Positions 4,069-60,966 of a stretch of 64,000 bases of DNA are shown here, one piece after another (position 1 is the stretch's first letter; every line of letters starts with the position of its first letter). The stretch covers positions 14,508,001 through 14,572,000 of the forward strand of contig OY727097.1 of assembly GCA_963402885.1 (NCBI GenBank), given 5' to 3'. The stretch is from Antedon bifida. Taxonomy: Eukaryota; Echinodermata; Crinoidea; Comatulida; Antedonidae. The position numbers and the translations under genes are program-made. The notes beneath the pieces are model-generated. The model searched no databases. It had not been told where the DNA came from and was given only the letters and a program-made list of their open reading frames with translations.

Positions 4069-7000
4069 TTGTTCAACTGTATAATGATTGATAGTGTAAC
4101 TTCGAATCTACCTAACTTTAATCCGTTAACTCACAACCTTGATAATTTTGATGAGCAGTCAGCAGATTTAATCGATCAATTAAACTCGAGATCAACTACT
4201 CTTGATAACTGCTCATATTATGATTGTGACAAGTTTAATTCAACCTTCACAAATGATTCCAATACTAGCCTTTCCCTTTTTCATCTGAACATTAGAAGTA
4301 TTAAAACTAAAGTAGACCCACTCATACGTCTGTTAGACAATTTAAGCATTGATTTCTCAATAGTAGGTCTCTCAGAGACATGGCTACATGATAACTCGCC
4401 AACTCCCTCTTTACATAATTATACTTTTTTCTCTAAAAATAGGTCAACTAGAATTGGTGGTGGTGTTGCTTTATTTGTTCATAATGATATAAATGTTAAA
4501 ATCAGACATGACATCTTGCTTCCTCTGCCTTATGAATCTCTATTCATTGAACTTAGTAACCATAACAAAAAATCTACTGTTGTCGGTATAATATACCGTC
4601 CACCTGGAAGTTGTATTGACCATTTTTCTGAATCACTAGACAGTGTTCTAAGTAAAATTGATTCTGAAAATAAGAAGTGTCACATTATGGGGGATATAAA
4701 TATTGATCTAATTAAATATCATAATCATCACAGCACTGGAAATTATCTTGATCTACTTCTTTCACATTCTTTTTATCCCACTATATCGAAACCTACCAGA
4801 ATAACTACAACAACTGCCTCTCTAATTGATCACTTTTATACCAACCAAACTCATTCTAATATTTCCTCCGGTGTTCTTATTACAGATATTTCTGACCATC
4901 TTCCCATTTTTCAACTTATTCATGATGACCAATGCCATTATAACAAGCCTACTGATAGACAGTCTCCCCGCATACAGGATGTTAATGCCTTTTGTAATGA
5001 CATCATAAACGAAGATTGGTCTGAAATTTATAACGCCACACCTAATCTCGCTTTTGACACATTTTTATTAAAATTCTATAATATACATGATAAACATACC
5101 ACCTATAAATCTGTACCCAAAACTAAAATGTCTAGACAACCATGGATGTCGCCTGGTCTTAGAAAATGTAGTAAAAAAAAGCAAAAATTATACAAAAAAT
5201 TTATTTTATCACAAGATCCTAATCGCAAACTAACATACACAAAATATAACAATATGTTTAATAAGCTTTGCCGCACTGCAAAAAAGAATTATTTTTCTTT
5301 ACAATTTGACACGGTCAAAGGCAATCTTAAAAAAACCTGGTCCATTATTAATTCTGTTTTATCCCCTAATAAGTCAAGTCGAAACTATCCCAAACAACTT
5401 ACAATAAATGACAATACCATTACATCTGAAATAGATATTTGTAATCAATTTAATAAATATTTTTCTCAAATTGGCACTTCACTTAAAAATTCAATGCCAG
5501 ATTCCTTAATTAATCCAAAATCATATCTTCCTGATCCCCTTCTCCATTCTTTCTTTATAAATCCTGTAACTGAACATGAAGTGATGATAATTATAAATGG
5601 TCTTGATCCAAAGAAAGGAGGTGGCGATGATAGAGTTACACCATACGTTATTAAATTGATTTCTCCATTCATTATTAATCACCTTACGTTCTGTATTAAT
5701 TCATCTTTTTCTTCAGGTAGTTTTCCCAATTATTTAAAGTTAGCAAAAGTTATTCCAATTTTTAAGAAAGGTAGACAAGATATAGTTTCAAATTACAGAC
5801 CCATTTCACTACTTAGTACCTTTTCCAAAATCATTGAAAAATTAATGTACTCCCGTCTCTATGAGTTCCTGGATTGCAATAACGTACTCTTTGCTCATCA
5901 ATATGGTTTTCGTAAATCTCATTCCACTTCACATGCAATCTTGATCTCATAAATAATGTAACAAACTCCTTTGAAAAAAGACAATTTTTGTTATCTGTCT
6001 TTGTCGACTTATCCAAGGCCTTCGATATTATAGATCACCATATACTTATTAATAAACTTAACAATTATGGAATCAGGGGCATTACCTTAAACTGGTTTCG
6101 TAGTTACTTAAGTATGAGGAAGCAATATGTCTCGTTTGGTAATTGTATATCACCAGAGGAGGAGATGACATGTGGGGTGCCACAAGGATCGGTCCTTGGC
6201 CCTCTCCTTTTTTTAATTTACGTAAATGACTTATCCAGAGTCAGTGACACCCTCCATGTCATCTCCTTTGCTGATGACACTACACTATTTTTTTCTCATT
6301 CTGATTTAAAAGTTTTATTTTCTATAGTTAATAATGAATTGTCAAAATATAATGACTGGTTCATCTCAAATAAACTCCTTATAAACTCCATGAAAACCAA
6401 TTACATTCTTTTTCATACACAACGTCAATCGTTAGACCTTACTGATTACAATATATTTATTAATGGAGATAACATTAAACAAACGTCAGAGACTATGTTC
6501 CTTGGTGTTTTAATCCAGGAAAACTTGAGATGGACCAGTCATCAGAATCATATTGCAAATAAAATTTCAAAAACAATTGGGATTATAAATAATCTTAAGC
6601 ACACTTTTCCCCGGCGAATCCTTCTTTCATTATATAATTCTTTAATTTTACCTCATCTTTATTATTGTAACATTATTTGGGCTGCTGACTATCCATCACA
6701 TCTCGATAAACTTAATAAGCTGATTAAGCGTGCTATTAGAAATATTACTTTTACATCTCGCATTACTCCATCTGAACCTTTATTTTATGAACTTAAGTTA
6801 CTGAAGTTAGGTGATATACATAAATTGCAAAGTGCCTCTTTTGTCTTTCAATATTTTTCTAACAATCTTCCTTCTCCCATGATGAATTTATTTAACACTG
6901 CTGATTTCAACCATGGTCATAATTTAAGAAGTACTGTTCATAAGTTTCAGTTAACTATTCCTTTTGTAAGATTAACTAGTTCTTCCCACTTTATTTATGT

Positions 7001-7112
7001 TTCTGGCCCTTTAATTTGGAATCAATTAGATACTAGTATTGTTAACTCTTCCTCTCTCCCAACTTTTCGTAAAAAACTTAAAAGTAATTTGTTATCATTG
7101 TACTCAAACTAG
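4069..7112 (+). pseudogene. LINE ORF2: AP endonuclease and reverse transcriptase, one frameshift
   Basis: The first part (to 5952) holds an apurinic endonuclease domain: HLNIRSIKTK, the catalytic-Glu motif GLSETWL, RIGGGVALFVH, GIIYRPPGS, GDINIDLIKY and the final ISDHLPIF. The reverse transcriptase begins with NYRPISLLS and FAHQYGFR. After a one-base deletion near 5939-5941 it continues in the frame ending at 7112 with VDLSKAFDIIDHH, GVPQGSVLGPLLF and the catalytic FADDT. The C-terminal thumb-like part follows and the protein ends LPTFRKKLKS. Apart from that single frameshift, about 1,010 codons read through, so decay is slight. The most likely start is ATG 4084, in the same frame as 4069. 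Confidence 0.9.
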
Positions 7113-8093
7113 ACCTTCAAACTGTTTTTGTCATGACTTTTTTATTTTATTTAATAATTATATACAAATGTATTTTTTTCTTTTGTTTATGGGTCTTGCG
7201 TGACAAGTATTCTCTTCTTGCAAGATCCTCTATTAATGGTATTTTTTGTATTTTCTCATTATAAATTATCATTCTTTTTTATTGTATTGTTATACCATTG
7301 ATAGAAACTAATAAATGTTGAATTATTATTATTATAAGGATATTAACGAAGACATAAGTAATAAAAAGTATTAAACTTAGGCCTACTCATTCAATAGGCT
7401 CTTGAAAATGTCCTTTGCAGCCATGTTCTTCCATTTTAGTTTGGTATCCGCATAAATTTATTTTAGTGTTGTCAAATACAATAATTTAATTAAAAGTATT
7501 CAATTTATTTTAGTTAACTTCTACAAACATAGTTTGAGTGTGCTAATTAGCATGCATCAAGTCGACCTCTGATTGGATAATTGTTACTACTGCAGTGTGC
7601 AGTCAAGCGATCATTTCCTGTTGTGTATTGTTTTTTTGAGATAATGCTTTCTACTGAATTTTTTGTAGGTATGAATAAAGATAATGCCCAAACTGATTTT
7701 AATTTTTTTAATATTTTTAATATTTATAGAAAACATTTTTAGTAGCTGTTAAGTTTAAATGATAGATTATACCCTCAAAAGTCATGTAAGACAAAAATCT
7801 AAATTTTGAAAAAAATTGAGATAATGCCCTTTCGTAAATCAGGGCAGTGTAGTATTCAAGTCTGTTTTTAATATATTGATTGTTTTAAATAATATAAATA
7901 TTGTTTATAGTAATAACTTTATTAATATACATTTTAAATTTTGAAAATGTACTCATATTATTTCCATTTTAATTGGCGAAATAAAATTGAATTTTGAATC
8001 ATCATCAGAGAGGAGGAGAGGAGGCGTGGTTAGAATGTCCCGTTCGTCCCTTCTTCTCTTGCTTGTCATCAGAGAGTAGAAATCAGAGTAGAA

Positions 8094-8198
8094 ATGGTGT
8101 TTAATGAATACACTGAAGGAATCATAGATCTATTGGGTGAATTTATTAGATTGAATGATTCATTTATTATTAATTATGCCCATGCCCAGTCAGCCTAA
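8094..8198 (+). CDS. Small ORF in foldback core (34 codons), conserved in both copies
   Basis: ATG to TAA encodes 34 residues beginning MVFNEYTEGIIDLLGEF. The homologous stretch at 34777-34881 keeps the same start, stop and length. Within it I see one replacement (V to A at residue 2) and one silent change (AGA to CGA). No family is recognised. It could be a first exon of a lost transposase gene, a real micropeptide, or chance, because the two copies are recent duplicates. Confidence 0.25.
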   Translation: MVFNEYTEGIIDLLGEFIRLNDSFIINYAHAQSA

Positions 8199-8324
8199 AA
8201 GGCCTAGGTCTGGTGTAAAAATCAGGATAAGCTTAGGCTAGGCCTATAGCCTAGGCCTGACCGATGACAGAAATTATGCCTAGCTAGGAGGCAGGGAGGG
8301 CCTAATAATAGTAAACTCGATATG

Positions 8325-22829: not shown

Positions 22830-23606
22830 GATTTGTAGTGGGGACGTCATGACAATCTGGTCGGATATATGTCATGTATGCGTTGCTAGACCATCTCCCA
22901 ATAGCCTTGATGCTGTCTGTTGACAAGCCGAGTTTATGTAGGTCGGTTGTTCTGCCGATGCGGAAAGAGTGTGTGGTATATTTTCCTACTTCCAAGTTTG
23001 CTTATTTCAGTGTTCTATCAAGAACTTCACAGAACGTTGTTCTGGTGATCGGTTTACCGGTAGTGTCAATAAAGAACTGTCCAGGTTTTGGAGGTCGCAG
23101 TGATATGTACTTTTGAACAGCCTTTACAGGACAGAGTCTTTCATTGTTCTTTTGTAGAATGAACGGGCGCTGTTGTTGCTTGCTGTGTTTGTAGGAGTGA
23201 AAGTTCAGGGAGATGCTGGAGTTACTGTAAGATACATCCGCCGCGTTCAGGGCATGCCCTGACGGGGTAGATACTAGTTCGCTGATTCGTAGGCAAGCAT
23301 AGTAACATAACAGAAACATAGCCTTGTACAGGATATAATCTGTTACGTTTTTTGTAGTTATCTGTAAGCGTTCGATTAGCCCGATTAATATTGGCAGTGT
23401 GATTGGTGATCGTTTATCTCGCTGTCGGTATAAGCTTTTCACTCCTCTACACAGAATGGTAACAATTGGGTTTGTTGTCGGATCTTCAAATAAATTGATT
23501 TTGTGCATAAAAGACACAGCACTGAGGTGCGTTCGTATTGTACTTGGCGCAAACCCGTGTGTGTGAAGATATGAGACGTACTGACTGATGGTATGCGCAT
23601 TTGCTG
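22830..23606 (-). pseudogene. Tyrosine recombinase of a Crypton- or DIRS/Ngaro-type element, broken
   Basis: On the minus strand an N-terminal SAM-like core-binding region (LPANAHTISQYVSYLHTHGF, then RTHLSAVSFMHK) leads to the catalytic domain. The first catalytic Arg lies in YYACLRISELV, the box-II His-x-x-Arg in HSFRIGRTTDL, the Trp in IGRWSSNAY and the likely nucleophilic Tyr in AYMTYIRP. All expected catalytic positions are visible, and the reading frame is interrupted at least once. A possible splice acceptor (TATCTTCAG) precedes LPAN. No reverse transcriptase or RNase H lies beside it, so a Crypton or an isolated recombinase unit is as likely as a DIRS remnant. The eight-unit hairpin array follows its 3' end. 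Confidence 0.8.
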
Positions 23607-23734
23607 GTAGCTGAAGATATGATTACAAACGTGATTTCGTTAAATTGTGCGTAGACCGCATACTTTTTGATTGCGCACCGTGGAAAACATAACCACATCG
23701 AAAAATGGACTTAGCTAGATGAAACTGATATCAA

Positions 23735-24133: not shown

Positions 24134-26757
24134 ACAAGATACAAGATAACTTTATTGTCAAATAGTTCATCAAAGAAAAATTTGAAATTGGTTTTTATCA
24201 TGGCAACTTAATATAAAAATAGAATAAAATCAATATAATATGAAAAAAAAGGTAAAATACACAGAACTGTAAAATATGTACAGATAAGGATAAATGCTAT
24301 AGATGTTCGAAAATGCAATTATTTGTGTTTGTCGTCATTATATTTAAATATACATTGTGGGACAAATGACAGTCGGTACCATGCTGTCCGTAACCTTGAT
24401 ATTACTCTTAGTCTACACCCAGTACGATTAAACACGAAGGACGGAGTGGATGAGTATCATCGTTCAAAATTGCAATTCCTTTCTGTTCCATTCGATTAAC
24501 ATACATTTCCATAATACTAGGCAGAATATTATCTCCATTTATGCATTTCTTAGCTCTTTTAACTATGCGTTCAAATTGATATTTATTGTATTCATACGTG
24601 TTACCATAGTAGCAAGTTAAGTTAAACATTAAAACACTTTGTATAACGGCTTTGTAGAAGAGTAAAAGTATTTCTTCATTTACCCTAAAGTTTTTGAGTT
24701 TCCTAATGAAATACAAAGGTTGATTAGCAACAGTTATTGCAGCCTGGTCTGTCCAGGTAAGTTTCTCATCAATCATGGTTCCTAAATATTTATATTTGTC
24801 AATATTTCAACAACTGCTCCTTCGATTATAAGTGTTTCAATTTGAGGTTTTTTAATTCTGAAATCAATAATTAATTCTTTAGTTTTCTTAATATTAAGCT
24901 CTAAGTAATTATCGCCACACAGGTTTGTCTGACATGAAACCCGTTATTACAGTATCATCTGCATACTTGATGATGGAGCATTTAGGGTCTTCACATACAT
25001 AGTCACTCGTATAGAGTGTAAATAAAATGGGGGATAATACACAGCCTTGTGGGGCGCCTGTGCTTACTTTGCATACTTTAGATTGCGCATCTTCTATCTT
25101 AACATACTGTGGTCGTTCCCTAAGGTAACCGATAAGCCATAGCAACATTTTAGAATTGACATTTAATTTATACAATTTATCGAGTGATGTCAAGTGAGAC
25201 TGGATACAATTGAAATTGGTGTCAAATTGGTGTCAAAGCTTTGGGACGGTAATCGTTTAAGGAAGTAATTTGTTTAGTTTTAGGCAATGGTGCTATTAAT
25301 GAAGTCTTCCAAACAGTTGGGATAACTCCAGTTTAGTACGTTGGAAAAAAGTTGTAAATACTGGAGAGAGTTGGTGACCACAAAACTTCAGCACTTTATT
25401 TCTAATACCGTCAGGACCCGTAGCTTTGTTCACCTTAACACCTGAGAACACCTGCCCGACTAAAGTTTCATCAATACTTAAAATAGTGGATTCTTTATTG
25501 ATTTCGTTTTCTAATGACCTTATGTTATCGCTAAAATCATTTAGGTCATTTGCGAGTTTAAAATTAAAATTGTTAGTATTACTATTATCATTACTTTGTT
25601 TACAGTTAAAACCAGACATTGTTCGCATTGCCTTCCATGCTCCGCGGCTATCACAGTTCTTAACTTTATTTTCAAGAGTTCTACCATATTCAGCTTTACC
25701 GGATTTGATTAACTTGTTGATTTCTTTTTGTTTCAGTTTAACAAGACTGCTTTTGTTATCTGCAAAAGCCCGTTGTTTGTCAATTAATAACAGTCTTATG
25801 TTTCTCGACATCCATGGTTTGTTATTTGCGTATAAACACTTTCTTGTATTTGATCGGGATCACATTTCCAACACAATATTTAATGTACTCATTTACAGCA
25901 GTAGCATTAGTGTCGATATTATTATCGTCGAACACCGACCAGTCCGTACATTCGAAGCAACCGCGTAATGTATCCACTGCATCTTCCGTCCAGGCGCGGT
26001 ATTCAATTGTGATTGGCTTGAATTGCTTAAAACGTTGTCTGTATTTCGGCAGCATACACATTGTATTATGATCAGATGCTCCTAGTGGCACTCGCGATTT
26101 CACATTATATTCACACTTAATGTTTCTGTAACATTTGTCTAAGATCGTAGTGCCTCTAGTTGGTTTGGTAATATATTGCACATAACCCGGATAGCTAAAG
26201 CGGCATTTGTTAAAATCACCCAGTACGAGTTTAATGGAATCCGGTGATTTACTTTTCGAGATCGTTTAACCTGCGTCTTAGCTCTTTGTTTGCAATCACC
26301 TCATTTGCATTTGGGTGTATGTAGACAACAACAACAAATACCTGGGTGAATTCACGCGGCAAATAAAATGGCCGCAAACCAACTATAATCAACTCTATGT
26401 CGGGTGAACAATAACGTTCTTTAACGGATGAATTATTGCACCATTTACTGTTGAAGTAAAGACATACACCACCACCTCTGTTTCTGTCCGATTCACTGGT
26501 TCTGTCACCTCTAATAAGCTCATAATTTGGTATGTGTAATGCACTATCGGGAACGTCTACCCCCAGCCAGGTCTCGCTAAAACACATTAAATTAACATCA
26601 CGAAACTCCTGTAAATATCTCAGATTACTGCTAATTTCATCAATCTTATTTGGTAGCGATCTAACGTTTGCAAGAATGATGGAGGGGAGTGGACTCTTAT
26701 TACCACTTTTCCTCATTTTTACCCGAGCCCTAAGAAACTTTTAAAGTTAAAACAGCC
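24134..26757 (-). mobile_element. Second LINE (non-LTR retrotransposon), minus strand, decayed
   Basis: Endonuclease and reverse-transcriptase pieces run in order on the minus strand. The 3' end is the TTATCTTGTATCTTGT tail read from 24134-24165, a simple-repeat tail typical of several LINE clades. The element ends at the junction with family A copy 3 near 26757. The upstream part with any ORF1 is absent, as expected for a 5'-truncated insertion. Confidence 0.85.
24408..26716 (-). pseudogene. LINE ORF2 pseudogene (endonuclease, reverse transcriptase)
   Basis: Endonuclease: 26249-26716 holds NVRSLPNKIDEI, CFSETWLGVDVPDS and RNRGGGVCLYFNSKWC; 25822-26181 holds TKPTRGTTILDKCY and PLGASDHN. Reverse transcriptase: 25296-25811 holds KVNKATGPDGI, 24909-25193 holds STGAPQGCVLSPILF and KYADDT, and 24408-24776 holds the C-terminal MIDEKLTW and FYKAVIQSVL region. 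At least four frame changes separate these pieces. A segment of roughly 60-80 residues, including the expected YRPVALTS-like and VDFSSAF-like motifs, is deleted around 25200-25300. It is clearly dead. The clade is CR1/jockey-like and differs from the LINE at 2880. Confidence 0.85.
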
Positions 26758-32407: not shown

Positions 32408-33259
32408 TTACCCGATTTCTGATATTTAAAATGTTATATACTGATTTTACAATTTCCCGGCAATATACTTCAATGATGTTTTAATATAATCGATTTGATC
32501 GGTTTTTTGGGGGGTGTTTTTTTTTTGCAGTATAATTATATTTTGTTTAAGCTCAGTCTACACTATCAAACTTTATGTACAAAAAATTTGCACATCACAC
32601 TTTGTGTAGACAGAGCCAACGGCAAACAATCGAGGGGAGCAACATTTCGGAAGTCGCTTTAGTGATTACATCAACCCGGAAATCACTTTTATACCGCGGA
32701 CGGCAGAAAATCTACCGATTAAATAAGACATTTTGTTTTAAAACCCTTTATAATACAGACTTATCTTCCTAAGAAATATGGAACAATATCGTAATAGTAA
32801 ACAATATTGTTATCATTAAATCTGAGATAAATAAGGTATGTATCTAAGAGAGACCTTTACAAAAGTGTTTCCATTGTGCTCGCCTATATCAGAATTTAGT
32901 ATTATTTGTTGTATATAGACACGCTAACATTGATCTCATGGAGCACATTTAGCTCGTAGTACCATGAAAATAAAACACTTCATCCGGTAGTGCTAACTAT
33001 TCTGAGTGTAAATTATGATAATGTGACGTTTGAACTGGCAGTTACGACTACAAATATCTAGACTCCAAATTCTTTTCAGGTAACACATTTTGACTGCTAA
33101 ATTCGTACTACTATTGGTTTCATTTTACCGTTACTTGGAGGAGATATGTTTTTTTTAAATTGTTTTACAAAATCAAATGGAAATCTCGATTCATATCCAT
33201 TTATTGTATAATTTTGCATAAAAACAGTGTTGTATGGCACGCCAGGACGGACATAACTA
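32408..33259 (+). repeat. Low-copy repeat unit, family A (copy 4, left part)
   Basis: It is nearly identical to 1-773 but retains about 80 bases (around 32795-32875) missing there. The foldback element follows at the same point as in copy 1. Confidence 0.85.
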
Positions 33260-33365
33260 TGTCAAGTTGACCTCGCTCGTGTTATGTGGACATCGCTCGT
33301 GTTGAGTTTACACATCGCTCGTGTTATGGAGACATCGCTCGAGTTGAGTTTACACATCGCTCGTG

Positions 33366-33747
33366 TTAAGCCTATTTTCCACTAGGCGAATTTGATCGCG
33401 CGAATCGAAAGCGTCATGCTATACGCATGCGTATTTGAGTTTCTGTCTGTCATACTCCCTTCTGCGACGAATTCTAGTTCCTTTGATTTCTCGCTTCAGC
33501 GAAATTTACTAGTTCGAATTGTTTCTACTTTTTGCGAAGCGAAATATTGCGCAACCAATCAGAGCTCAGGAAATGAGCTATGGCGCTTTCATGAGCACTC
33601 ATGCGAATCGAAATGCTCAGCAACCACGCGAGGAACATGAACGTCGAAGCTATTCGCTCATGTAGTGGAAAGAGAGTTAGCGATTTTTTTCTCTTCGAAA
33701 CGTTGGATTCGCGCGAACAAATTCGGCTAGTGGAAAATCGGCTTTAA
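33366..33747. mobile_element. TTAA MITE (complete copy)
   Basis: TTAAGCCTATTTTCCACTAG at the left and CTAGTGGAAAATCGGCTTTAA at the right form inverted tips with TTAA at both ends. It corresponds to 879-1232 in foldback copy 1. The 82-codon frame inside is treated as chance. Confidence 0.8.
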
Positions 33748-34410: not shown

Positions 34411-34776
34411 TGTTATTTATTCTTTTAGCCAGTTATATTGCATATTTTAACTAATTATTGGAACCTGTATAATGTAATGTTTATAGTATTTTTGATGTTA
34501 TTATATGTTGCTTTTAAAATGTTGTATCCCTGTAGCATTCAAGTCTGTTTTTAATATATTGATTGTTTTAAATAATATAAATATTGTTTATAGTAATAAT
34601 TTTATTAATATACATTTTAAATTTTGAAAATGTACTCATATTATTTCCATTTTAATTGGCGAAATAAAATTGAATCTTGAATCATCATCAGAGAGGAGGA
34701 GAGGAGGCGTGGTTAGAATATCCCGTTCGTCCCTTCTTCTCTTGCTTGTCATCAGAGAGTAGAAATCAGAGTAAAA

Positions 34777-34881
34777 ATGGCGTTTAATGAATACACTGAA
34801 GGAATCATAGATCTATTGGGTGAATTTATTCGATTGAATGATTCATTTATTATTAATTATGCCCATGCCCAGTCAGCCTAA
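34777..34881 (+). CDS. Small ORF in foldback core (34 codons), second copy
   Basis: It starts MAFNEYTEGIIDLLGEFIRL and keeps length, start and stop relative to 8094-8198. No motif or signal peptide is apparent. Function is unknown and it may not be expressed. Confidence 0.25.
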   Translation: MAFNEYTEGIIDLLGEFIRLNDSFIINYAHAQSA

Positions 34882-34995
34882 AAGGCCTAGGTCTGGTGTA
34901 AAAATCAGGATAAGCTTAGGCTAGGCCTATAGCCTAGGCCTGACCGATGGCAGAAATTATGCCTAGCTAGGAGGCAGGGAGGGCCTAATTAATAA

Positions 34996-40975: not shown

Positions 40976-41685
40976 TAGGCCTATCCAGTAGGCCTGCAAT
41001 GAAACGTGTATTTTGTGTACCCCACGGTACAAAGTGTCATCAAGTAGTACATTTAATAATTCGAACAGCCTAGATCGTGAACATAATTCATACGCTTTTG
41101 CTGTAGCGTACGTATACACAGTACACGACGTACGAGTCTGTAAACTTCGCCGGGGAAACAACTACGCATTTTGGTCCCTGGATGGAACATGTGTATTACG
41201 CTTAAACCGTGTATTCCACGATGTCATTGGATCAGTAACTTAATAATAATACTTTCTTTAATTGTCCAATTCATCATGTGTTTGTCATTACTATGAACTT
41301 TAATTGTACTGATTGGAATAATTAATCAGTATTTAATAATTCTAGCCTTCTAATCAATGTTAGTTCACCCGATTCTGTAGCTGTTAGTACACTCAGTGTG
41401 GAAGACTGTCGACAGTCTGCCAGAGACCTGTCTGACTGTATTAAGTACTTTTAATACACGATATCGCTGTCATTAGGTTCATATCTATAGACAATTTGTA
41501 ACGTTATAATATGTATTCAATATAAAATCCACTCGGCAACCAGAATAGTATTAGTAGCAGGTTTATCGTATTGCCATGCATGGATAGGTGTTTTCCGCCG
41601 CTTTTATTAGCAGGGCATAATGAATATCGTAGCTAGGCTAGGCCTACTAGCGTCAAATCAACCAATTATTTGGGTGGTACGAGTT

Positions 41686-42400
41686 TAGGGAGTTAAGTAC
41701 GAGTTGGCATGTACGAGTCGACCAGGGGGTGAATCGACAGGGTACACCTACTAGAGCATAGGCTATAGTCCTGCGAGAATGGGAAATCTGGCCTAGATAG
41801 GCATAGGCCTACATTGGGTATGCCCAAAAAAAGCTATCCTATCATATCCTATGAGCATAAAAAGGCCTCGTAGAGCCAGAGGTGTTAGCCTACTATGGAT
41901 CACTATTATTTAGGCCTAGCTAGCCTAGGCCTAGAGTTAATTTTAAATTAAGTAGGTAGGCCTAGGCTCCAGTAATTTCGGTCGCGTTTTCGGCCTATTT
42001 TTCAGGAAATGTGAGAGGTGAGGTGGGTTAGCCCAGCTAGGCTAACCTAACCTGTAAGTAGTATTCTAGCCCATCCATGATGGGTACGGGTTGGCATTTG
42101 TACGGGTTGACCCGTATCTGTATTCTAGCTAGGGTGCTGGTCAACCCGTACCCATGCCAACCCAACTTGGCTAACTCGTACCCAAATCATTGGTCAACTC
42201 GTACCCACTTGGGCTAACCCGTACCCAAACCAATTCGTATGTAATATAAATATACTTTTAATAGCATTCGCCATTAAACATAGGTACGGGCCAGCCCATG
42301 ATTAGTACGAGCCAGCCCATGATGGGTACGAGTGAGCCAAAGTGTTGGGTACGAGTAAACCAAAATTTTGGTACGGGTTGACCTGTACCCTTCTAGCTAA
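41686..42400. repeat. Cluster of GTACGRGTT/AACYCGTAC words, left arm
   Basis: More than ten copies of GGTACGGGTTGACC-like words, in both orientations, occur at 41686-41760 and 42075-42400. The mirror clusters are at 48415-48530, 48715-48880 and 49300-49350. Such iterated words near the ends of an element usually act as transposase-binding or folding sites (inference). Confidence 0.75.
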
Positions 42401-45400
42401 TCGTACTAGGCCTCGAGTAGGTCTACGCTAAAGTCCGGCTACAATAATAGTCTATTCTGTTTATAGCTTTATTGATAGCTGGGTTCAAATCTGGATTGGG
42501 ACGGCTTTTCCTCATTCTAAAACAGATTTATGGAAGGCAATCGCCGCCAAAAATACAAAAGTAAAACAAACAACGTACTTTCACGATTTCCTTATCATAA
42601 TAAAATAATATATGAATTTAACTGTAATATTGTATACATAGTAATTGCCATTGCATATATTATTATTATATATTATACGGTTAGGCTTTATTTGCTCTTA
42701 TGCTTATTTCCTCCAACGTACAGAGTACGTAGGGCTTCCAATTTGCTTTTATACCTGTTAATTTAAAAATTGTTTATGCCTATTCTTGCATAACGTTCAA
42801 ATTTAGACTGTAAATACTGGGATGATCACCCTAAATTTTCTTTTTCAATTAACAATTTTATATTTCACAGCTAGAAAAAAGCATACAGAGTTTTTTTTAT
42901 TCATAACTGTTGAATTGCATCCCAATACATGGTACCTATTGGTATTATATCTATAAATATAAAGTACTCTCTTATAAATAGATATCCAAACTACTCCAAC
43001 TACCTAATCTAATAATAGTACTATTAGCATACTACTGTACACTTTGTAGACAAGAAATAAGTTGTATCCACCTAGAGGACTTATGGTAGTACTGTACAGT
43101 CGATCGTCCTCTCACTGGCCCGGTCAACATAATCTACGCCTAGATTATTACAGTAATTAAAATACATATTTACAGAGATTTTTTTTTTTTTGCAGAAAAG
43201 TTATGTGTAGAGAAAGCAGTACTCGTATTAAAAACTAAGCAGGTTGTACTCTTGAACGCAAACTGGCAGGATATTTTAAATATTTTTTATTGTTGAAATG
43301 ATGGAATCCTAACTTCATTTTCCACGAATTGGAGACAAAGACATATTACGATCCTTTTATTTAAATTTATTTGGATAGACCTCCATGTAAATTCATTAAA
43401 GGCTATATGATTGTTTTATATTTTAATATGTGATAGAAAATCATTGTGCATAATGAGGACTAAGAATCTAATATTTACTTGCATTCTCATCTTTTTAAAA
43501 TTGTATTTATAATGCTGGTAATGAGTTTACTATTGAAAAAGTCATGTTTCCACTTATCTCAAATTGTGGCACACCTCTAACCTTGTTAGAACTGACTGTG
43601 TTCTACATTATTCTGCTATATAATAGTGCTTCCACCATACTTCAACCTGGTAATTGAATAAATTTCACCGGGGTAAAATTTAAACTAATTATCATCCTTT
43701 AACATAAAGTATCCTCCTGAAACATGTATTTGTACTGTACTTCATCTAATATCCATTACTTAATACTAATTTGGGTGATTTATGTCTAACTTCAGGAATG
43801 ATCTGAGGCTAGAAAAACGAATTTCTGTACATATAATTTATATAAAAAATAAACCAATGTTTTCCTAATAACTTAAACCCTAGGTTGATAACTAACAAAG
43901 AAATTATTGAAATTGTGTTCTTACAATATAGGTGTACTGTATCTACATGCATACTGCGTTGAAAAGAAGAATGTTTTATAGTTATTATAGGTTATTTCCA
44001 AATATTAAAGGTCTGATATCTAACAGAAACTAAATGTTACCAAAGTATGTTTTTGAAAATCTTTATGATATAATAATTATAATAATATGAACATAATATT
44101 AAATTATATTGACTATTTTTGATAATCATCATGTCCTTATAAATTCATTTATATTTATTTTGTGGTAATATAGTTCATATATTATGTATTAAATAAATTG
44201 GTAAGGCCCTATACTGTTTATATTTAAGGAAAGTTTATAATACACTATTATTTTATGCCTACCAATATTAGTATTAATTGTTTATGTAACTATTTTGTCT
44301 AATTGCATTGAATTTTTGTATAGGCCAATGGCATTAATGTTTTTCTCAAAGTAAATTAGCCTAATAATGCCATATTTAGACACATAATTCATTGATTTCT
44401 GATATTCTGTACTTGTGTATGCATTACTAAAATAGTAGTTATTTTATTACTTTTATAATGTATGTATAAACATTTATTCATTTTTTTTTACATTTTTAAA
44501 TTTAAAAATTATTAAAATACCTATCTACCTTTCTGTTATTGTTACTATTATAATATTTTTTGAGGCAGATTGATTTCAATAAAAAAAATTTTAAACAATT
44601 AATTTGACTTATACTGTACTATGTTAGTTCAGGAGATGAAGTGTGTGTGGGCAGAATCTGGTGTGTTGGGTGTTGGTGATGTGAGGTGTATTTTTGTCAC
44701 TTTAAGACCTAAATTAGATGTTTTCTGAAGAAAAGAAGTAAGCGGATAGGCTTTCAAACAACTTCAAGAAGATTCACACAGAAATAATTACTTCCCAATA
44801 AAATAGTATGTAACAGTTTATATTACAGTACGTTGAATAAACTCGAGCGGAAAAATAACACACATAAAAAAACATTCATTTTCTTGTCGAAAAGCGCCCT
44901 CTCTAGTTTTCTATTAATTTATTAATAATTATTATTAATTAATGAGTAATATAAACATATTTTTAACATTTAATGCTTGAAGCTGATTCTACTCATAACA
45001 AAGTTTCATACCTCCAAATTTCATGAACGTATTCAAAGCACTTCAATAAATATCACATTGAACATTAAAAATTAGGGTTATGATAGAATTTTGCTTAAAA
45101 ACATATACAAAAAACATCGATAAAAAATACTTTTCGAATTTAAAAACATTTGAAACTTTTTTAATATGTTCAATATAGGTTGCTCTATTCACAGAAACAA
45201 AATTTCATTCATGAACGTTTTTTTTTTCGTTGTTTTTTCAAAATCGTTATTAGGTTTAAAAAATGCGTTGGAGTTGTATGATCTTTCATAAGTGTACATT
45301 TTGTAAAAACGTAAATTTAAAAAATCAGTGATATGGCTCGATATTTATTTATTTTTTGCAATATGGATGGAGCAACCTATATTGAACATTTCTACCAAGT

Positions 45401-47863
45401 ATCAAATGTTTTTGAATACGAAAAATATTTTTTATCGATGTTTTTTGTATATGTTTTTAAGCAAAATTCTATCATAACCCTAATTTTTAATGTTCAATGT
45501 GATATTTATTGAAGTGCTTTGAATACGTTGATGAAATTTGGAGGTATGAAACTTTGTTAGGAGTAGAATAAGCTTCAAGCATTAAATGTTAAAAATATGT
45601 TTATATTACTCATTAATTAATAATAATTATTAATAAATTAATAGAAAACTAGAGAGGGCACTTTTCGACAAGAAAATGAATGTTTTTTTATGTGTGTTAT
45701 TTTTCCGCTCGAGTTTATTCAATGTACTGTAATATACACTGTTACATACTATTTTATTTGGAAGTAATTATTTATGTGTGAATCTTCTTGAAGTTGTTTG
45801 AAAGCCTATCCTCTTACTTCTTTTCTTCAGAAAACATCTAATTAATTTTAGGACTTAAAGTGACAAAAATACACCTCACATCACCAACCTCCAACACACC
45901 AGATTCTGCCCACACACACTTCATCTTCTGAACTAACATAGTACAGTATAAGTCAAATTAATTGTTTTACATTTTTTTTATTGAAATCAATCTGCCTCAA
46001 AAAATATTATAATAGTAACAATAACAGAAAGGTAGATAGGTATTTTAATAATTTTTAAATTAAAAAATGTAAAAAAAAAATGAATAAATGTTTATACATA
46101 CATTATAAAAGTAATAAAATAACTACTATTTTAGTATTGCATACACAAGTACAGAATATCAGAAATAAATGAATTATGTGTCTAAATATGGCATTATTAG
46201 GCTAATTTGCTTTGAGAAAAACATTAATGCCATTGGCCTATACAAAAATCCAATGGAATTAGACAAAATAGTTACATACAATTAATACTAATATTGGTAG
46301 GCATAAAATAATAGTGTATATAAACTTTCCTTAAATATAAACAGTATAGGGCCTTACCAATTTATTTAATACATAAAATATGAACTATATTACCACAAAA
46401 TAAATATAAATGAATTTATAAGGACATGATGATTATCAAAAATAGTCAATATAATTTAATATTATGTTCATATTATTATAATTATTATATCATAAAGATT
46501 TTCAAAAACATAGTTTGGTAACATTTAGTTTCTGTTAGATATCAGACCTTTAATATTTGGAAATAACCTATAATAACTATAAAACATTCTTCTTTTCAAC
46601 GCAGTATGCATATGTAGATACAGTACACCTATATTGTAAGAACACAATTTCAATAATTTCTTTGTTAGTTATCAACCTAGGGGTTAAGTTATTAGGAAAA
46701 CATTGGTTTATTTTTTATATAAATTATATGTACAGAAATTCGTTTTTCTAGCCTCAGATCATTCCTGAAGTTAGACATAAATCACCCAAATTTGTATTAA
46801 GTAATGGATATTAGATGAAGTACAGTACAAATACATGTTTCAGGAGGATACTTTATGTTAAAGGATGATAATTAGTTTAAATTTTACCCCGGTGAAATTT
46901 ATTCAATTACCAGGTTGAAGTATGGTGGAAGCACTATTATATAGCAGAATAATGTAGAACACAGTCAGTTCTAACAAGGTTAGAGGTGTGCCACAATTTG
47001 AGATAAGTGGAAACATGACTTTTTCAATAGTAAACTCATTACCAGCATTATAAATACAATTTTAAAAAGATGAGAATGCAAGTAAATATTAGATTCTTAG
47101 TCCTCATTATGCACAATGATTTTCTACTATCACATATTAAAATATAAAACAATCATATAGCCTTTAATGAATTTACATGGAGGTCTATCCAAATAAATTT
47201 AAATAAAAGGATCGTAATATGTCTTTGTCTCCAATTCGTGGAAAATAAAGTTAGTATTCCATCATTTCAACAATAAAAAATATTTAAAATATCCTGCCAG
47301 TTTGCGTTCAAGAGTACAACCTGCTTAGTTTTTAATACGAGTACTGCTTTCTCTACACATAACTTTTCTGCAAAAAAAAAAAATCTCTGTAATAATTACT
47401 TTAATTACTGTAATAATCTAGGCGTAGATTATGTTGACCGGGCCAGTGACAGGACGATCGACTGTACTACCATAAGTCCTCTAGGTGGATACAATTTATT
47501 TCTTGCCTACAAAGTGTACAGTAGTATGCTAATTAGGTAGTTGGAGTAGTTTGGAGAGATACATCTATTTATAAGAGAGTACTGTATATATCAAACTATC
47601 TGTGTTGGCCACCTTTGTATTTTTAGATATAATACCAATAGGTACCATGTATTGGGATGCAATTTAACAGTTATGAATAAAAAGCTGTGAAATATAAAAT
47701 TGTTAATTGAAAAAGAAAATTTAGGGTGATCATCCCAGTATTTAAAGTCTAAATTTGATACAACAATAGGCATAAACGATTTTTAAATTAACATGTATAA
47801 AAGCAAATTGAAAGCCCTACGTACTCTGTATTTGGAGGAAATAAGCATAAGAGCAAATAAAGT

Positions 47864-48166
47864 CTTGACCACAGGGTGTAATTCACTATTTTAAATCAGT
47901 AGTATGACTGTACTTATGTGTTGGACCATACTGTAATGTGGTCCAAGTTGACGGGCCAGGAATGATGGTAGTACCAGTATACCGTGTACTGTAGTATGTA
48001 GTAGTTGGAGTAGTTTGGAGAAATACAGTAGAGATTTACGAGACTTGGTGTGTGATGATTCAGTATGATAATTTGTGCTGTGAAAGACAAAATTGTTGAA
48101 TTGTGAAGAAAATATTGTAAAATATAACAAGGAAATTATAGTTTTATACTATAGTATAATTAAGGG
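47864..48166. repeat. Right-arm-specific extra segment (~300 bp)
   Basis: Left-arm sequence at about 42680-42690 runs without a break where the right arm has this segment. Part of it (TTGGAGTAGTTTGGAGA...) repeats 47540-47565, so it is probably a local duplication with later change. Confidence 0.6.
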
Positions 48167-48542
48167 GTAACCGTATAATATATAATAATAATAATAAATG
48201 CAATGGCAATTACTAATATTATGTATACAATATTACAGTTAAATTCATATATTATTTTATTATGATAAGGAAATCTGTTTTAGAATGACAAAAAGCCGTC
48301 CCAACCCAGATTTGAACCAAGCTATCAATAAAGCTATAAACAGAATACCATTATTGTAGCCGGACTTGGTAGCGTAGACCTACTCTACTAGGCCTAGTAA
48401 GATTAGCTAGAAGGATACAGGTCAACCCGTACCCATGCCAACTCGTACCCAACATTTTGGCTCACTCATACCCTCATGGGCTGGCTCGTACTCATCATGG
48501 GCTGTACCTATGTTTAATGCTATTAAAAGTATATTTATATTC

Positions 48543-48702
48543 ATTAAAAAGATTCATTCGGTTGGTATTCCAAATAAAATATAATAGTTAATTATATCTC
48601 AACCGTAACAGTATAAATAGTAATGGTAAATAAAATAATCGTTATTTTACTAATATTACTATTACGGTTGAGATATAATTAACTATTATATTTTATATTT
48701 AT
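48543..48702. mobile_element. Small palindromic insertion in the right arm
   Basis: TAATAGTTAATTATATCTCA near 48580 pairs with its reverse near 48665-48690. ATATTTATATT lies on both sides, while the left arm (42243-42255) has it once. This marks an insertion of about 160 bp after the arms formed. Confidence 0.65.
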
Positions 48703-49132
48703 ATTACATACGGGTTGGTTTAGGTATGGGTTAGCCGAGGGTACGAGTTGACCAATTATTTGGGTACGAGTTAGCTAAAGTTGGATGGCATGGGTACGGG
48801 TTTACCAGCACCCTAGCTACAGTAGAAGAATACGGATACGGGTCAACATGTACCAATTCCAACCCGGGCGTACCCATCATGGATGGGCTAGAATACTACT
48901 TACAGGTTAGGTTAGCCTAGCTGGGCTAACCCACCTCACCTCTCACATTTCCTGAAAAATAGGCCGAAAACGCGACCGAAATTACTACTGGAGCCCTAGG
49001 CCTACTTAATTTAAAATGAACTCTAGGCTAGGCCTAGCTAGTAGTAGTAGTGATGCGTAGTAGGCTAACACCGCTGGCTCTACGAGACCTTTTAATGCTC
49101 ATATGAATGATGGCTTTTTTTGGGCGTACCCA

Positions 49133-49210
49133 ATGCGATGGGGCGACTTTGTATTGGGCGACTTTGTATGGGGCGACTTTGCGATGGGGCGACTTTGCGA
49201 TGGGGCGACT
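49133..49210 (+). repeat. Minisatellite GCGATGGGGCGACTTT (about five units)
   Basis: Units of about 16 bp, alternating GTAT and GCGAT starts, are present only in the right arm of the giant palindrome. The mirror position in the left arm (about 41815) has none. The open frame across it is a repeat artefact. Confidence 0.85.
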
Positions 49211-49705
49211 TGACTGGATTCCTGTAGGCCTATGCCTTCTAGGCCAGATTTCCCATTCCCGCAGACCTATAGCCTATGTTCTTCTAGTAAGGCTAGTGGT
49301 TGTACCCTGGTCGACTCGTACCATGCCAACTCATACTTAACTTGAGTGTAGTAGGCCTAGCCTCTACGATATTGAGTATGCCCTGCTAAAAAGGTAGATG
49401 AGCTACTAAACTAATTACGTAATTCGTATAATCAATAACAATAACTGACTAGAAGGCCAAAAAGCAGAGGAAAACGCCTATCCATTCTTGCATGGCAATA
49501 CGATAAACCTGCTACTATTCTGGTTGCCGAGTGGATTTTATATTGAATACATTATTATAACGTTACAAATTGTCTCTAGATAGGAACCTAATGACAGCGA
49601 TATCGTGTATTAAAAGTACTTAATACAGTCAGACAGGTCTCTGGCAGACTGTCGACAGTCTTCCACACTGAGTGTACTAACAGCTACAGAATCGGGTGGT
49701 TAGTT

Positions 49706-60226: not shown

Positions 60227-60966
60227 ATAGACTAGGCTATGAATGAGGTAGGTGCCACCCGGAGAGGTAGAAATTCTCATATGACTTTTCTAGACCAGTT
60301 TTTTCTGGGGAATCCAAATATATTGGGTAAACGGGCTGTAACCTGAGAACTTTCGCGTGAGGGCGCTTTTTTCAAAATGGCTGCCAGTTACAGTAGACTA
60401 TGATATCTTGGCAACCACTGGTCATAGAGAGTTGATTTTGGTGTCAAATTGTTCGGAATGTACATGTTCCTATTTGATGTAATAGAACATTTTGTCCGAA
60501 AATGGCCGGAAATACCTCTATTGACCTTTGACCCAATATCTAACAGATATCATATCTCCGTAACTACTCGACACAGAAAGTTGTAATTGGTGTCAAACTC
60601 TCCAGAATATAGATGTTTATATTCGAGTAGTTACGGAGATATGATATCTGTTAGATATTGGGTCAAAGGTCAATAGAGGTATTTCCGGCCATTTCTGGAC
60701 AAAATGTTCTATTACATCAAATAGGAACATGTACATTCCGAACAATTTGACACCAAAATCAACTCTCTATGACCAGTGTTGCCAAGATATCATAGTGTAC
60801 TGTAACTGGCAGCCATTTTGAAAAAAGCGCCCTCACGCGAAAGTTCTCAGGTTACAGCCAGTTTACCCAATATATTTGGATTCCCCAGAAAAAACTGGTC
60901 TAGAAAAGTCATATGAAAATTTCTACCTCTCCGAGTGGCACCTACCTCATTTATAGCCTAGTCTAT
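60227..60966. mobile_element. 740-bp palindromic MITE
   Basis: The left arm from ATAGACTAGGCTATGAATG and the right arm ending CCTAGTCTAT pair over about 350 bp each. They include AAGTTCTCAGGTTACAGC and GACCTTTGACCCAATATC, around a centre of about 40 bp near 60596. The arms look about 95 per cent identical. It sits inside the 9-kb element. Target duplication is unclear. Confidence 0.85.

Follow-up and report, generated by a model that had tools for sequence, protein, structure and literature searches.

The stretch analysed here, 64,000 nucleotides of contig OY727097.1 (C10) of the crinoid Antedon bifida and hereafter called the window, carries an imperfect palindrome of 8,333 bp at positions 41366-49698 that is flanked by GTTAGTT on both sides. 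This element, termed E1, very probably belongs to a young, non-autonomous family of DNA transposons with terminal inverted repeats (TIRs), a family of the foldback type in which the whole body of the element is palindromic. Chromosomes are not expected to maintain palindromes of kilobase size stably. At least 16 insertions of one palindrome with 4-kb arms in a single genome, with empty sites for five of them and arm-specific markers for the family as a whole, indicate that foldbacks of this arm length can multiply whole and are not one-off oddities. Coordinates are positions in the window unless prefixed by a contig (C1, C7, C10, etc.).

The extent of the element, its tips (CACCCGATTCTGTAGCTG...CAGCTACAGAATCGGGTG) and the GTTAGTT duplications (41359-41365 on the left, 49699-49705 on the right) had been given exactly in an earlier note on this stretch. 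Arm A (plus strand, 41366-45191, 3,826 bp) and arm B (minus strand, 45364-49698, 4,335 bp) enclose a loop at 45192-45363, which measures 172 nt instead of the ~175 nt previously estimated. The arms do pair along nearly their full length, as the note had it: their alignment contains 3,674 pairs, 3,470 of them identical (94.5%), in addition to 813 gap columns, and the longest perfect inverted block comprises 515 nt (43434-43948 pairing with 46612-47126). In steps of 200 bases, arm identity amounts to 0.99 at the tip, 0.64-0.94 across the following kilobase, 0.98-1.00 at 43166-44366 and 0.92-0.985 closer to the loop. A coding interior is indeed lacking, the five open reading frames (ORFs) of at least 60 aa having sizes of 60-79 aa and no Pfam match up to E 1; neither Rfam (at gathering scores) nor a tRNA search produced a match anywhere in the window. 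With regard to tandem subrepeats in the arms, short local repeats were observed (49134-49204 and scattered GGGTACGGG-like motifs), and arm B includes a small inverted repeat of 123 bp (48574-48696). Long inverted arms thus constitute most of the element and leave little or no coding middle, as is typical of foldback elements, while the length of 8,333 bp does not agree with that of miniature inverted-repeat transposable elements (MITEs), which are usually shorter than ~600 bp.

Copies, target-site duplications and empty sites

The genome comprises 315.6 Mb in 27 contigs. When the outer 2.3 kb of this element's arm B were used as query and the best 40 of 962 candidates scored, long matches of at least 93% identity were obtained at no fewer than 21 loci, ten of which reside on C10, three each on C7 and C13 and one each on C1, C9, C12, C15 and C16; the C1 locus among the 21 is a half element. 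Sixteen copies were read, i.e., E1 and 15 others; four of the 21 loci (C10:12630360, C7:24436071, C13:10147537 and C16:9047593) are not among the whole copies read. Each of the 15 other copies has the same pair of unequal arms; they align to 7,490-8,311 of the 8,333 bases of E1 and are 99.0-99.8% identical to it at aligned bases. About 78 bp near 41605 are missing from E1 and present in all others, and nine of the 15 contain further insertions of ~0.5-6.3 kb. When the loop and its margins served as query (best 40 of 128 candidates scored), 18 loci matched at 99-100% and 22 at 93-94%, the latter carrying a loop of an older type.

The nested insertions were considered as a possible coding part of the element and rejected, as they represent other mobile elements as judged by eye (frames were inspected, no Pfam search was made). 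Among twelve nested stretches of the longer copies, two of which are halves of one, a single one has a large frame of 1,124 aa; it is part of a ~4.7-kb insertion inside copy E3 (L032, 405-5070).

Of the 16 copies, 12 are flanked by perfect 7-bp target-site duplications (TSDs) and two more (E9 and E19) by duplications with a single mismatch. For eight insertions, 90 bases of flank from either side were joined with one 7-mer kept and compared with the genome, the best 40 of 1,369 first-look candidates being scored. All 40 near-whole-site matches are located on the plus strand of C10 between 11.4 and 16.3 Mb and belong to five sites on this contig, E1, E7, E8, E10 and E14; 13 shorter pieces, ten of them on the minus strand, were obtained in addition. 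Empty sites were read for these five of the eight flank pairs, two of them for E1 (L077 and L078, with a single copy of the left GTTAGTT), and each contains exactly one 7-mer and no element. The family thus exhibits the TSDs and the mobility of foldback-type DNA transposons, and the duplications together with paralogous empty sites holding a single 7-mer characterize it as a non-coding DNA transposon family. The interpretation of E1 as a transposon, put forward in the earlier note, is therefore supported both by further loci with the same tips and structure and by homologous element-free sites, the latter being paralogous rather than derived from another individual.

The distribution of the copies is uneven. 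C10 makes up 10.3% of the genome and harbours ten of the 21 loci (binomial p = 1.6e-5), seven of which fall into a repeat-rich stretch of 4.9 Mb (11.4-16.3 Mb; p = 2e-8, a value that is indicative only because the limits of the stretch were set from the search hits). This accumulation, along with many near-identical flank copies in the same region, would be in line with a spread of the C10 copies by segmental duplication instead of transposition. Such a spread is nevertheless very improbable, as E1, E7, E8, E10 and E14 differ in their flanking 7-mers and an empty paralogue exists for each of them; the differing TSDs argue for independent insertions in a comparison that leaves out the unread locus C10:12630360 as well as E17, which has no TSD. 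Either local hopping or a repeated region that tolerates insertions would account for the clustering. Amplified or long-read libraries are also known to generate long palindromes as artefacts. That a fold-back read produced the palindrome is nonetheless hardly conceivable, given that the same two non-identical arms are found in 16 copies with different flanks and mostly with TSDs, that empty sites exist for five copies and that nested insertions are present at one place of the palindrome only.

A number of observations weigh against a mobile, non-autonomous palindromic transposon. E3 and E17 lack a TSD, and with regard to inversion by recombination as a cause, no partner with exchanged TSDs was present among the flanks compared. 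For the flank pairs of E11, E12 and E13, which reside on other contigs, no empty site was found among the 40 candidates scored. Not all loci are whole: E3 is devoid of ~750 bp around the loop, C8:28294010 is rearranged, and C1:18029598-18035254 is a half element with a perfect TSD of its own that consists of arm B and of ~2.2 kb of different sequence following a 48-bp piece of tip, the Pfam search of three ORF pieces from this locus giving nothing above cut-off. Searches for P, MULE (Mutator-like element) and hAT transposases established none that carries the tips of the element; in particular, all 58 P-transposase places are more than 10 kb away from the 163 tip places listed, and no TSD read matches GTANTAC, the target preference of Galileo. 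Finally, the older family is represented by a single copy read at its centre (L074).

In the C10 stretch at ~11.4-16.3 Mb, the many copies of the flanks of the five insertions are 93-98% identical and lie on one strand. Within the window itself, pieces recur at distances of ~27-32 kb with mostly 95-98% identity, i.e., 1-1235 with 32408-33746 and 7848-8310 with 34531-34994.

Divergence and exchange between the arms

The indels and substitutions that distinguish the two arms had been taken as a mark of the persistence of E1 itself, a view that has to be revised. In a comparison of 3,493 well-aligned arm pairs across the 16 copies, the majority state differs between arms A and B at 108 sites, with fixation of 90% or more in both arms at 94 of them, so that the master was already asymmetric. 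Divergence between A and B amounts to 0.0363 both within and between copies, as opposed to 0.0070 for A-A and 0.0091 for B-B comparisons between copies. It follows from the arm-specific states and this pattern of divergence that the arms differed before the burst and that each copy inherited the pair. Most arm differences thus predate the insertion of E1 and are not the outcome of local ageing.

At sites with agreeing majority, 161 departures affect arm A only and 252 arm B only, compared with five in both arms (counted as copy-by-site cells, not events), and exchange between the arms has therefore been rare since the burst. It is real all the same: in arm A of E6, 12 successive diagnostic sites (44305-44818) show the B state and form a clear conversion tract. 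Shorter runs occur in E4, the sister of E6 in the tree, in E12, in E17 and in E8 together with E18, and could in part be ancestral. States common to E5, E9, E17 and E19 point to a subfamily and not to conversion. Across the 16 copies, no majority difference between the arms exists from 43170 to 44304 (plus strand of arm A, with its mate in arm B at ~46257-47392), and this block looks like an old conversion tract in the master.

The older family adds a second time depth. The centre of L074 is palindromic as well, with arms that are 88% alike and 86-89% identical to those of E1, and ~520 bp present in both arms of E1 (43538-44058 on the plus strand, mate at ~46500-47022) are missing from both of its arms. 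In an alignment of the four arms (1,464 columns), 43 sites unite the arms of E1 against those of L074, while the other two groupings are supported by one site each. As both families have the loop in common, a single origin of the palindrome is probable, followed by separate homogenisation of its arms in either lineage. Judged from the sequence of this one older copy, the arms would thus be subject to slow concerted evolution; independent re-duplication of an arm could have had the same effect as homogenisation.

A different origin would be that of a composite, in which an older palindromic element came to lie within a smaller CACCCGATTC foldback. In accordance with this idea, nine older-type loci match arm B only inward of one and the same point, 48504, and the arm homology of an older copy on C11 ends there, too. 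We consider a composite unlikely, because C9:15748619 and C9:9454251 carry the tip, parts of the outer arm and the inner arm in line with 71-93% identity (with a gap in C9:9454251) and because short repeats abound in the outer region, where homology may simply fade. Somewhat less likely still is the more far-reaching proposal that palindromy has been kept up since before the split of the young and the old family by repeated copying from arm to arm, the hairpin being the propagated form and no by-product, since a folded or self-templating state helps to survive gap repair or transposition. A lineage of this kind would resemble sex-chromosome palindromes, which correct themselves.

Short elements with the same tips and the source of the transposase

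In the mechanism that we propose for the transposon family, a transposase supplied in trans would recognise the terminal region, the tips of which are shared with short MITE-like elements, and would then cut and paste the element, while palindromy would outlast transposition because occasional conversion between the arms resets them. A genome-wide search for the tips, which the earlier note had suggested, led to short elements in addition to the further long copies. With up to two mismatches, the 18-mer of the tip is present at 117 + 115 places in the genome, compared with 0 + 2 for a reversed control. Four short elements of 104-291 bp with the same tips were read at both ends, and 7-bp repeats flank three of them (L052, L053 and, by eye, L055) but not L054. 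Beyond the tip, the loci L069, L072 and L073 resemble the ends of the long element, i.e., the terminal ~140 bp of arm A (41366-41505, plus strand) and of arm B (49559-49698, minus strand), at 78-83% across 64-140 bp; in ten other loci (L058-L067) no such likeness was found. The simplest reading would be that one enzyme serves short and long elements alike. In 16 further tip neighbourhoods of ~1 kb each, no transposase was recognised by eye, although a longer element could hide one; four of them contain frames of at least 100 aa (no Pfam search made). At C7:3619072-3621395, two short-element tips face outward at a distance of 2.3 kb and share the outside flank TCACTCAGATAG, which suggests a larger inverted duplication.

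With regard to the source of the transposase, the P superfamily with its Galileo-like members ranks first, at a probability that we put slightly below one half, followed by a Mutator-like source, which is possible yet doubtful, and by some other superfamily, which is more doubtful again. The 7-bp duplication fits P elements (7 bp in Galileo, or 8 bp) and does not agree with the ~9 bp of MULEs (8-10 bp in the foldbacks compared). An abundant P-type gene for a protein of 642 aa was dismissed as partner, as the two copies read start with other sequence (left end only). Among the 163 listed tip places, none is found within 10 kb of any of 39 hAT-transposase places, whereas one of 33 MULE places, on C7, has a listed tip within that distance.

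At this locus (C7:10844139-10857080), B-type tips enclose an open frame of 688 aa with a MULE domain (C7:10853189), and the right 407 bp match arm B at 100%, so that the locus might be a remnant of an autonomous form; in addition, most foldbacks seem to be members of Mutator according to the Tetris paper (PMC4079207). Its left tips, however, are without their first bases and a TSD is absent. Three other copies of the transposase, on C8 and C9 and with 99% identity across the 160 aa used for the search, are all more than 10 kb away from any tip listed, one tip-associated place in 33 is about what chance predicts (0.34 expected by a hand estimate), and the MULE-type foldbacks compared have TSDs of 8-10 bp instead of 7 (PMC3169594, PMC4079207). 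Because of the truncated left tips, the missing TSD and the near-identical copies without listed tips nearby, the MULE on C7 is probably nested. A Mutator-like source for the transposon family therefore appears doubtful.

Several observations on coding sequences and repeats stand apart from the family itself. The MULE transposase frames at C7:10852961, C8:17017178, C8:18440607 and C9:6289536 comprise 600-704 aa, are 99-100% identical over 160 aa and possibly stem from an active element, as far as their sequences indicate. The P-type transposase gene occurs at 15 places of the same score (e.g., C10:13984125 and C11:7280297), 14 of them with the 642-aa frame, and the 99.4% identity of two copies (L056 and L057) over 4.3 kb identifies it as a young family. 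In the window, two groups of diverged reverse-transcriptase/endonuclease-like open frames (4069-7112, plus strand, and 24408-26740, minus strand) appear to be remains of elements of the LINE (long interspersed nuclear element) type, a 206-aa frame (23002-23622, minus strand) resembles a tyrosine recombinase (Pfam Phage_integrase, E 3.3e-5, below its cut-off), and a second, smaller palindrome is located at 60236-60957, the translated halves of which match in inverted order at ~83-98%.

Comparison with known foldback elements

A sea urchin foldback transposon is said to have long terminal inverted repeats, going by the title of a paper by Lieberman from 1983. We assign the family of E1 to the foldback kind and not to Galileo or the P superfamily. 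Arms of this length had been regarded as unusual in the earlier note, and arms of ~4 kb without a coding interior are indeed what is present here; a limited literature search, from which no absence from print is claimed, nevertheless produced one published precedent, Galileo copy 112 of Drosophila willistoni, which measures 9,021 bp, lacks a transposase and has TIRs of 4,246 and 4,680 bp (PMC4168063).

Galileo of Drosophila, a member of the P superfamily, shares with the family described here long non-coding inverted arms and a 7-bp TSD as well as the occurrence of chimeric copies without matching TSD (PMC4168063, PMC3573991). In contrast, copy 112 is a single copy with tandem repeats in its arms while long arms are found in 16 copies here, the TIRs of D. 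mojavensis average 668 bp (PMC4168063, PMC3573991), and in A. bifida neither GTANTAC duplications nor a P transposase near the listed tips were found. Tetris from Drosophila virilis is similar in that it is a foldback, apparently non-autonomous, whose ends also occur in a MITE, DAIBAM, but differs by TIRs of at most 1,735 bp with ~220-bp tandem repeats, TSDs of 8-10 bp and three structurally complete copies (PMC4079207). Tm1 from root-knot nematodes (Mutator/Foldback) likewise has foldback-like ends as well as non-coding and MITE-like forms, and the TIRs within an element are 93% identical on average; on the other hand, its TSDs comprise 8-10 bp, its ends are built from ~14-bp repeat units, it is much shorter (one reported element has 1,080 bp) and a transposase-bearing form is known (PMC3169594). 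New in the present case are a mobilised multi-copy family with ~4-kb arms, the arm-specific mode of inheritance, a conversion tract that could be mapped and the homogenisation between families. Such a family permits measurement of how fast and in which direction conversion between the arms proceeds, and likewise of the loss of one arm and of disruption by nested insertions.

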